37,599 nt of DNA from Candidatus Nitrosocosmicus sp. (GTDB taxonomy: Archaea; Thermoproteota; Nitrososphaeria; Nitrososphaerales; Nitrososphaeraceae), in NCBI GenBank assembly GCA_025934495.1, contig JAICXY010000023.1:1-37599 (forward strand), given 5' to 3'. The position numbers and the translations under genes were made by a program. The notes below the pieces were generated by a model. That model did no database searches and was not told where the DNA came from. It saw nothing but the letters and a program-made list of their open reading frames with translations. Below, piece after piece: positions 34,126 to 37,599 of this stretch. Each line of letters starts with the position of its first letter. Position 1 is the stretch's first letter.

Positions 34126-34208
34126 ATGAATTAACCTTGAATTTTATTATATTTTATTGTTATATTTGTATCATTATTATACTCCTTTATTTGAATATTT
34201 GTTATAAG

Positions 34209-35255
34209 TTGAATTGGCGGTTACTTTCCATTTTTGCGAGTATAATACCTATAATACTTATGTTTGTATTTACTCCTGTATCATTACATGATATTTTTTC
34301 TGTTGGGCTTCTTCCCTTTTTATTGTCTTTCTTGGCAACAATGGTAAAGATCTTTTTACAGGCAATTAGATTTTACTATTTTATAAGAAAATTCATTGGA
34401 AATCATGTAAGTTCGTTTTGGAAAATAGCTTTTGCTAGACTGGCAGGAGAATTCGTAACTCAGACTACCCCTTCTTATATAGGAGGCGAACTTGTGAGAA
34501 TAGCATTTTTAACAAAAAATAACGTTTCTGCAGGGAAAGCTGCTTGGGTTACTACTATGGAAATTATTGCTGATGTTTTCGTTGGTACTATATTGGCATT
34601 TATTGCTGGTTTTAATGCACTATTGGATGGTGCTACCTTCATTGGCATTTTATTAATTTTGATTGCTCTTCCAACTTTTGGTTTTTGGTTTTTTATATTA
34701 ATTTATTCCTCAAAAAAGAATATTAGATTGCCATCATTCACATTAAAGTTATCTAAAAAATTTATTTCTGAAGAAAAGGCCATACGTGGGATTAATTCTG
34801 TAAATAAGGCGTTAGATGATTTATGCATGATGAGTAGAGAAAATTTCGGTTCATTCGAATCTGTTAGAGTTTTTTCAATTGGAATAGCAATTACCTTATT
34901 GGCATTCTTTTTTCATGGGCTTTCTTTTTTGGTGTTAACTCATTCAATAGGGAGTCATATTGATTTATTTGTCTCTTTTATGGCTACCTCTTCATCTACT
35001 ATTTTAGGAACTCTTCCAGTTACTATAGGAGGGTCTGGTTTGGCAGAATTAGGTCTTTGGAGCTATATTAATCATTTGAATGATTTTTCGCAATTTGGGC
35101 ATATTCTTACTGATAGTCAATTAAATGTGATAATTGCTTGGCGTATAGCTTCATACCATATTCCTTTAATTATAATGTGGATTGCATTAATGAAATTGGC
35201 TATAGGAAAGAGTTACTCAAAACCGACTTCACCTTCTAAAATTACCGATAATTAA
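34209..35255 (+). CDS. Flippase-like/lysylphosphatidylglycerol-synthase-type membrane protein
   Basis: An integral membrane protein of the LPG-synthase TM-domain family (UPF0104-like), with about eight hydrophobic segments. Family marks are FLQAIRFYYFIRKF and the ARLAGEFVTQTTPSYIGGELVRIAFL block, which in relatives carries a conserved TP..iGg..ra. The C-terminal GTLPVTIGGSGLAELGLW is also typical. There is no synthase domain, so flipping or transport of a lipid or lipid-linked sugar is more likely. I chose TTG 34209, where the first segment matches the family. The frame is open to TTG 34137, which would add a 24-residue hydrophobic stretch, but its start would sit on the promoter of the divergent GTPase gene. 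Confidence 0.8.
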   Translation: MNWRLLSIFASIIPIILMFVFTPVSLHDIFSVGLLPFLLSFLATMVKIFLQAIRFYYFIRKFIGNHVSSFWKIAFARLAGEFVTQTTPSYIGGELVRIAFLTKNNVSAGKAAWVTTMEIIADVFVGTILAFIAGFNALLDGATFIGILLILIALPTFGFWFFILIYSSKKNIRLPSFTLKLSKKFISEEKAIRGINSVNKALDDLCMMSRENFGSFESVRVFSIGIAITLLAFFFHGLSFLVLTHSIGSHIDLFVSFMATSSSTILGTLPVTIGGSGLAELGLWSYINHLNDFSQFGHILTDSQLNVIIAWRIASYHIPLIIMWIALMKLAIGKSYSKPTSPSKITDN

Positions 35256-35716
35256 GAAGCACTATTATGATGTAAAAAACCATTTTTAGTATTGATGATC
35301 TTATATAAAATGTGAAATTCTATGAATATATTTATTTTGCATAATTAGAATAAACAGCTTTATGAGCATTAGTTTATCAAAAATCTGTCCTTTGGTTGTT
35401 CTCATATAACAGGCTATCCAAAAAACCTCTACTGCTTTTCAAATCATTCACTGCTGTCAAGCCAGCAGTGCAAGAGTTCAATAATATTTACGATAAAAAG
35501 ATAGCAAAAAGATATGATAAACATGAGATACAACGGATATCCAAACTAAACGACAATAGAAAAAGAGACATGGGTGCTGGGAGACCTTTCAAACTAGATG
35601 TAAAAAATAGGTTTCTTATGCTTTTAGTGTACTATCGTCTTTACATAACCTACACCTTGGCTGGATTTCTATTTGATTTAGATCAGAAGAGCAACGTCTG
35701 CAGGGATATCAAAAGA

Positions 35717-35744
35717 TTGAATATTGAATATTGAATATTGAATA
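35717..35744 (+). repeat. Four tandem copies of TTGAATA
   Basis: A 28-bp tract of four exact 7-bp units inside the IS5-type transposase remnant. With one copy the reading frame would run straight through (RL-N-MVRQC); three extra copies add 21 bp, which keeps the frame but brings in TGA 35732-35734. Confidence 0.9.
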
Positions 35745-35968
35745 TGGTAAGACAATGCGTACCAATTCCACAAAAAACATACAACATTATAAAGAGGCTC
35801 CAAACACCAATAGAGGAAGTCGAACATTATTTTCCAGGTCTTTTAGCTTTTATAGATTGTACATAGAACAATAGCAAATTCCAAGACCTGTAGATAAGGA
35901 TAGAAGAAAGATGTACTATTCTTGAGGCAAGAAGAAAAGACATACTACAGTAAAGAATCAGCTTATGG

Positions 35969-37053
35969 TTAACAGCTGTGTATACATATAGGTACATTCT
36001 CTTGTAAAATATTTGTGATTGCTTTGCCATGATTTTTATTATAAATATCCTTCCAATTGCTAACTGCTTGTCCTATTTCTTGTTCATCTTTAAAAGTAGA
36101 ATTGTTAATTGCTTGTCTTTGTAACCACACCCACCTTACTTCAATTAAATTAAGCTTGGGCGATCTTATCGGTAGAAATACGAATTTTATTCGTGGACAA
36201 TATGTGGATATCTCTTTTTGTACTACCTTTGATTTATGAGCTGAAAGGTTATCAAGTACAACAAAGATATTTCGAATATTCTTATCATATCTTTTATCTA
36301 CTCTTTTAAGAAAATCAACAAATTGTTTCCCTGTCTTCCTTTTATAGCATTGTACATGCATCTTGTCATTTGTGTAATCATAAGCACCAAATACATTTAG
36401 TAGCCCTTTTATCTTTTGAGCCTTCTCAACCTTTACCTGTACCGATGACCAGGATGTACCACCATGAGTCTTTGCCGTGGTTACTGGACCTTTCTCATCT
36501 AGATATAGAAGAATGGAATCCTTTTGTGTGTTGTATCTTAGTTGTTCAATGTACTTTTTTTCAAAGTGTAATCTGCAGGATCATTGATTCTTTTATTTGA
36601 TAGAACTGTTTTAGATTTTCTCCATTTTATTTTATGCTTTAAAAGAATATTCCTTATCTCTGAATGGCTTATTTTATCCACCATTTTTAGGTCATACATA
36701 AGAAAACCCGCTAGAATACGTAATGACCATGTGGAAAATCCCAAATCAAAAGATCTTGGATTTGCAGATGCTGTATCAACTATTTGTTTCTCTATATCAT
36801 TATCAAATTTATGTTGTTTGTGATTGTGCTTTTTTGATATGATGCCCTCGATTCCTTTTTCATTAAAGCGGTGTATCCATTTTCTTATGTTAAGGTCATG
36901 ATGATTTGTAATCTTCCTTATTTGCGGTACTGTATATCCTTCATCTTTAAGCAAGATTATCTTGGCTCTGTATCCTGATTCTTTATCTTCAAGCATCAGA
37001 TGTAACTGATTCTTTTCAACATCCGTAAGCATTCTGAGGAATGTATCCCTCAT
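35969..37053 (-). CDS. IS630-family transposase, two frames joined by a -1 shift
   Basis: The first frame (37053-36538, 171 aa) is the DNA-binding part: GYRAKIILLKDEGYTVPQIR and LNIRKWIHRFNEKGIEGI, a typical IS630 helix-turn-helix. The second (from near 36549 to 35969; the first ATG is at 36361) holds the catalytic part: first Asp in LYLDEKGPV, second in VVLDNLSAHKS, Glu in SPKLNLIEVRW. The frames meet at a run of seven A (36554-36560 on the minus strand), where a -1 shift joins them. Such slippery runs are used as programmed frameshift sites in this family, but a simple base loss is also possible. The stop codon TAA is made of the final target TA and the next host base. About 360 aa in total is normal. 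Confidence 0.8.
35972..36021 (+). repeat. Left terminal inverted repeat of the IS630-type element
   Basis: Starts ACAGCTGTGTATACATATAG. It pairs with 37101-37150 and shares the 10-base core TTGTAAAATA plus flanks. Confidence 0.8.
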
Positions 37054-37100
37054 AATAATAGATAAAAGAGTAGCAAGCTATAGGTGTTGTGATAGCAAAA

Positions 37101-37150
37101 CAAATACAACTATTTTACAAGAAGATATAGTATATCGTTTACATTGCTGT
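37101..37150 (-). repeat. Right terminal inverted repeat of the IS630-type element
   Basis: Read on the minus strand it starts ACAGCAATGTAAACGATATA and lines up with the left end. It precedes the transposase start at 37053 and so likely carries its promoter. Confidence 0.8.
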
Positions 37151-37599
37151 TAACAAAGATGGTTATATCCTTCATAAAGCAAATCATCATAAGAAAGGAC
37201 GAAAACATGATTATATATTCAACATATAAGAAGAATCATCCTGTTACTCCCTCAAAGCAAGTTGTTAATGTAGTTGATCTTGGATATCTTGGTATAGAAA
37301 AGGATTATCCTGTAGAACAACTATCATTGCACTACCATATAAAAAGAAAAGAAACCAACACGAGCTGTCCCAAGAAGAAAAGGCGTATAACAAAATTCAT
37401 TAGAAAAAAAGAATAGTGATAGAGCATACCATCTGTAGATTGAAAAAGTACAGGATTCTAGTGGTTTGTTGAATAACTACTTTCTTTTTTTGTAACAAGC
37501 TATATAGATCTAGATAATATATTGAACATTGGTCGATGATTCTATCGAGAAAAAGAAGAATAAGAAAAAGAAGAGAAAGATAAACTGGAGTGAATACAA

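Follow-up and report, generated by a model that had tools for sequence, protein, structure and literature searches.

The window, that is, the whole 37,599-bp stretch of DNA that was analysed, is the entire contig C44 of a 3.56 Mb genome in 200 contigs. Near its right end we found a plus-strand gene relic broken by an IS630-type element of about 1175 bp, with the following features.

35337..35967, plus strand: left portion of the host, an IS5-type transposase relic (DNA matches and HTH_Tnp_4)
35968..35973, no strand: left copy of the putative target duplication, GTTAAC (end comparison)
35974..37148, minus strand: IS630-like element, 1175 bp by the 6-bp reading (35972-37150 by the TA reading)
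35974..36014, plus strand: left inverted end (inverted-repeat comparison)
35969..36577, minus strand: open frame OrfB with the DDE domain (complete D, D, E triad, the second D and the E being 36 residues apart)
36554..36565, minus strand: frame-change site TTTGAAAAAAAG, read by OrfA as TTG AAA AAA AG
36538..37053, minus strand: OrfA, 171 aa, helix-turn-helix part (HTH_32 and the N-terminal part of the IS630 profile)
37108..37148, minus strand: right inverted end (inverted-repeat comparison)
37149..37154, no strand: right copy of the putative target duplication, GTTAAC (end comparison)
37155..37599, plus strand: right part of the IS5-type relic, extending to the contig end, with a weak match to the other relic in the window

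The gene next to the relic, at 34137-35255 (+), matched LPG_synthase_TM (76 bits, cut-off 33). The left part of the host relic carries an HTH_Tnp_4 match at 35396-35734 and has DNA matches at 43 other sites in the genome, mostly beginning near 35337, so that the IS5-type family has 44 match places with the window copy included. The window copy is decayed. A better kept relative, L114, has both domains that the host shares with the IS5 family, DDE_Tnp_4 (89.7 bits, cut-off 24.8) and HTH_Tnp_4, and reached 66 of the 140 bits required by the NCBIfam IS5 model, which is below its cut-off.

The preliminary description had claimed that an IS630-type element was inserted into an IS5-type transposase, and had proposed to look for the empty site. 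We fused the flanks with one repeat copy, taking in 37153-37260 on the right side, and searched the junction against the loci in hand. Among 26 distinct IS5-type rows of the same genome aligned across the junction, 19 carried an unoccupied GTTAAC and 7 a variant, confirming the insertion and its order. Together with the inverted ends, the IS630 profile and the DDE_Tnp_4/HTH_Tnp_4 matches, this bore out the claimed nesting, the order of events and both family names. Removal of the element with one repeat copy likewise yielded the site seen in other IS5-type copies, as had been stated, while the further statement that the repeated unit is TA does not follow from it. A paralogous relic was also found towards the other end of the window (minus strand, about 485-1317, with 66% in the longest alignment). 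VNED codons are legible there, but its six bases at that point are GTAAAC. On contig C79 of the same genome, an IS630-like end of another subfamily lies at the identical IS5-type GTTAAC site (L003 at 1496; L003, L072), so that this site seems to have been struck twice; the far end of the C79 copy sits in other sequence, an IS6-like repeat. Nested transposition as such is ordinary, and the moderate interest of the element rests on its likely 6-bp duplication and its conserved two-frame transposase.

The element family has 48 match places in its own genome, the window copy included. Its terminal inverted repeats are imperfect (agreement at 9 of the outermost 12 bases, and 79% in a further 38-nt arm pair), and the DDE triad is present in the window copy. 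When scored separately against the IS630 profile, the transposase pieces of the window copy gave 79 and 64 bits, and OrfB of three related copies exceeded the NCBIfam IS630 cut-off of 100 bits (L138 120, L013 105 and L136 101). On the 299 positions of this profile OrfA occupied 3-120 in L138 and 2-126 in L013, and OrfB 125-298, 132-297 and 129-298 in L138, L013 and L136, so that the relatives of the two frames jointly cover 2-126 and 125-298. The element thus shares DDE_3, a helix-turn-helix N-terminus, inverted ends and a central TA in the target with the IS630/Tc1-mariner group (IS630, ISY100). IS481 was considered as well, since according to the portion of PMC3053399 consulted it duplicates six bases at NCTAGN, resembling our element in its likely duplication length and in a palindromic core; the IS481 profile, however, gave at most 27 bits against a cut-off of 224, with OrfB of L138 scoring 25 bits there and 120 bits on IS630.

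We then considered how the transposase is encoded. It lies on the minus strand of the element in two frames rather than in a single gene, OrfB being the -1 frame of OrfA at TTTGAAAAAAAG; the preliminary description is silent on this conserved change of frame. A single gene was treated as a non-strict criterion for the family because frameshifting IS630 members are already in print (in the relevant part of PMC5009743), and frameshifting would be a trait that the element shares with its family. In the window copy, as in L013, L136 and L138, neither frame is interrupted. In a survey limited to copies with both halves extending as far as the A run, the -1 relation was found in 24 of 29, from 10 genomes: 12 of these copies belong to the own genome and the remaining 12 to G002, G003, G005, G011, G017, G019, G021, G024 and G061. 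The five exceptions are L025, L167, L177, L192 and L198, four in frame and one in the third frame, with the offset of L025 taken from a gapped alignment. Among L138, L013 and L136 the differing sites at codon positions 1/2/3 numbered 37/18/73, 23/11/66 and 30/18/74 in OrfA, and 27/26/91, 24/26/86 and 22/23/90 in OrfB; third positions were the most variable in both, the pattern that selection on two proteins would produce. The stop codon of OrfB lies inside the duplicated target in the window copy and L138, and within the element in L013 and L136. A comparison of five sequences revealed no conserved RNA structure downstream of the slip site (17 predicted pairs, one changed on both sides, -3.88 kcal/mol).

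A break between frames could also arise by ordinary decay of an old copy, with no recoding involved; most copies in the own genome do contain stops, and the A run is prone to insertions and deletions, two of the in-frame copies having longer runs (9 A in L192 and 8 A in L198). Against this stand the -1 relation common to most surveyed copies and the open frames of the four copies named above, and we rejected decay as the source of the break on the conserved relation and the codon-position pattern, regarding it as very improbable. A one-base deletion near the A run was ruled out as a general cause by the same survey. The split transposase is therefore not read as decay, given that the window copy has both frames open and that so many relatives keep the -1 change.

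To define the ends of the element, related copies had to be compared, since the palindromic GTTAAC of the window looks alike after duplication of TA, TTAA or GTTAAC (2, 4 or 6 bp). The preliminary description had placed base-exact borders at two TA dinucleotides; this was not upheld, as GTTAAC stands on both sides and the related copies favoured 6 bp. The paired flanks are CTTAAC in L138 and CTTAAA in L148 (both G005), and CTTAAG in L013 (own genome) and L250 (G021). Three miniature copies in G005, which differ at one base in 170 and end in AG...CT, have the flanks CTTAAC/CTTAAC, CTTAAC/CTTAAC and GTTAAG/TTTAAG. Homologous elements with different ends were said at the outset to speak against the TA borders, and the several copies in non-palindromic targets with a 6-bp direct repeat come close to that.

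The ends of 39 related copies were paired, and 30 pairs were analysed after excluding the 9 without TTAA on both sides, a filter that forces agreement of the four inner bases. All six bases matched in 19 of the 30 pairs and not in the other 11; 10.5 matches were expected on re-pairing (p 2e-5) and 13.9 when re-pairing was confined to genome groups (p 0.011). The first base agreed in 24 pairs and the sixth in 23, and at the three positions next to these on the outside agreement was 2-9 of 30 on one side and 4-14 of 30 on the other. Within G005 only, 4 of 5 pairs matched, and a fraction of 0.05 of re-pairings did as well, with six-base sites entered by hand and the three miniature copies set in one orientation. 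A broad end pattern applied across 13 genomes returned matches at background level, L250 being the sole gain. Around the copy at L025 945-2154 (own C40), a 10-base direct repeat, TTAAGTTAAC, was seen by eye; it counts against the 6-bp reading, as do the 11 unmatched pairs and the G005 result taken by itself.

These counts bear on the canonical alternative, in which TA is duplicated, the ends read ACAG/CTGT and TTAA is merely a preferred context. TA duplication is the family rule, described for IS630 and ISY100 in the section of PMC2170065 available to us, and the window copy is compatible with it. Among the 17 informative pairs, those without GTTAAC on both sides, 5 fitted the fixed-tip TA prediction exactly and 6 fitted 6 bp exactly, while single bases fitted TA in 17 of 34 and 6 bp in 21 of 34 cases. 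The base beside the supposed tip, however, varies in L138, L148, L013, L250 and the three G005 miniatures, and agrees with the opposite flank everywhere except on one side of C250. We consider the canonical insertion unlikely, and duplication of 6-bp NTTAAN considerably likelier than that of TA on this comparison of flanks. The 2-bp TA duplication of IS630 was not what we found: TA is central in the target, the window copy alone is uninformative, and because the related copies favour 6-bp repeats over the TA duplication of the family, we use the name IS630-like. The favoured 6-bp reading would shift each border two bases inward relative to the TA reading, to 35974-37148 and not 35972-37150.

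The targets in the own genome raised a further question, as many element ends there adjoin GGCTCTG or CTTAAG. Exact GGCTCTGTTAACAG junctions numbered 25, against 0 in the control. Because none of these 25 was an uninterrupted palindrome, GGCTCTG was considered as belonging to the end of the IS630-like element; this was rejected, since CTTAAG frequently occupies the opposite side and GGCTCTGTTAACTTAAG in uninterrupted form is an abundant repeat in its own right (321 sites at ≤3 mismatches, control 9). An abundant IS6-like element and its short derivatives of about 180 bp (genome-wide in G000; L081-L110) end in uninterrupted GGCTCTGTTAACTTAAG. The protein of L108 scored 87.7 bits on NCBIfam IS6 (cut-off 125) and 29.4 bits on DDE_Tnp_IS240 (cut-off 27); archaeal IS6-like elements have merely a loose kinship with IS6/IS26, as stated in the portion of PMC6807381 consulted. 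By eye, 8-bp repeats were found at L098 and at three of six elements (L102, L106, L082), with 7 of 8 bases at L084 and none at L108 and L110. At L004, L021 and L032 (own C169, C169 and C8), GGCTCTG-like sequence lies beyond both ends, with no 8-bp repeat by eye, a layout that perhaps reflects recombination between copies.

The element might accordingly be specialised for IS6-like terminal repeats, the IS5-type site being a stray event. Besides the exact junctions, about 12 of 29 own-genome pairs fitted on both sides (14 by script, L003 and L192 being removed by hand), where an even use of all 882 GTTAAC sites would give 4.5 (p 0.0008). On the other hand, none of the 5 G005 pairs fitted, the expected share was built on 138 counts of GTTAACTTAA with a control count of 51, and the repeats are non-coding, so that survival by itself could yield an excess. 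Such specialisation appears doubtful to us.

Instead, we think it quite probable from the DNA that this is an IS630/Tc1-like clade, here solely from Nitrososphaeraceae, with a 6-bp NTTAAN duplication and OrfA/OrfAB production by a -1 frame change, which landed in the GTTAAC of an IS5-type gene. The transposase would prefer NTTAAN and join the AG...CT ends across a stagger of 6 bases, thereby duplicating NTTAAN; here the element would have entered GTTAAC in the core of the IS5-type transposase gene. OrfA, with the helix-turn-helix only, may be one product, and an OrfAB fusion with the DDE domain may be made after a -1 change on the run of 7-8 A, via a ribosomal slip or polymerase slippage. The G005 form TTA AAA AAA AG would permit tandem re-pairing, and the TTG form would do so less well. 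By analogy, OrfA alone may bind the ends and possibly regulate, and the rarer OrfAB may cut and join. The nested insertion, the empty sites, the two conserved open frames in a fixed -1 relation and the 6-bp repeats of several copies can be read directly from the letters, and the element is presumably mobile. It seems rather likely, if less so than the placement above, that the stagger of this archaeal clade changed from 2 to 6 bases at NTTAAN while the IS630 transposase was kept, coupled to -1 recoding, with TTAA supplying the OrfB stop in the window copy and L138.

IS630/Tc1 elements are recognised and delimited by their TA duplication, and it is from this rule that a 6-bp duplication departs, frameshifting being already known in the family. 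If the reading is true, the stagger can change within the IS630 family and element borders in these genomes need correcting; it would also add one more archaeal case of conserved transposase recoding, of which the review text seen in PMC5009743 names just a handful of -1 examples. The part of PMC2170065 cited above, on ISY100, describes TA duplication and single transposase genes, whereas our element has the favoured 6-bp NTTAAN and two overlapping frames. Within the same superfamily, Fot-type pogo elements likewise have non-TA duplications, TAA and TAAA in the excerpt of PMC7386202 examined, but they are eukaryotic, do not occur in prokaryotes according to that source, and have shorter duplications than our element.

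With regard to distribution, a survey of 20 thaumarchaeal genomes listed IS630 in one species alone and counted 43 copies of IS5 in Nitrosocosmicus oleophilus (in the portion of PMC6563490 seen), and the clade of the element was not recognised in the openly licensed literature among the matches listed. All 12 loci from a contig scan with two short peptide patterns, whose best reach is close relatives, were titled Nitrosocosmicus or Nitrososphaeraceae. G005 falls in the same genus group as the own genome. The copies at L192 1415-2653 (own C73) and L149 1503-2724 (G021 C223), from different genera, have closely similar flanks on both sides, which may reflect either an old shared insertion or a repeated target common to both.
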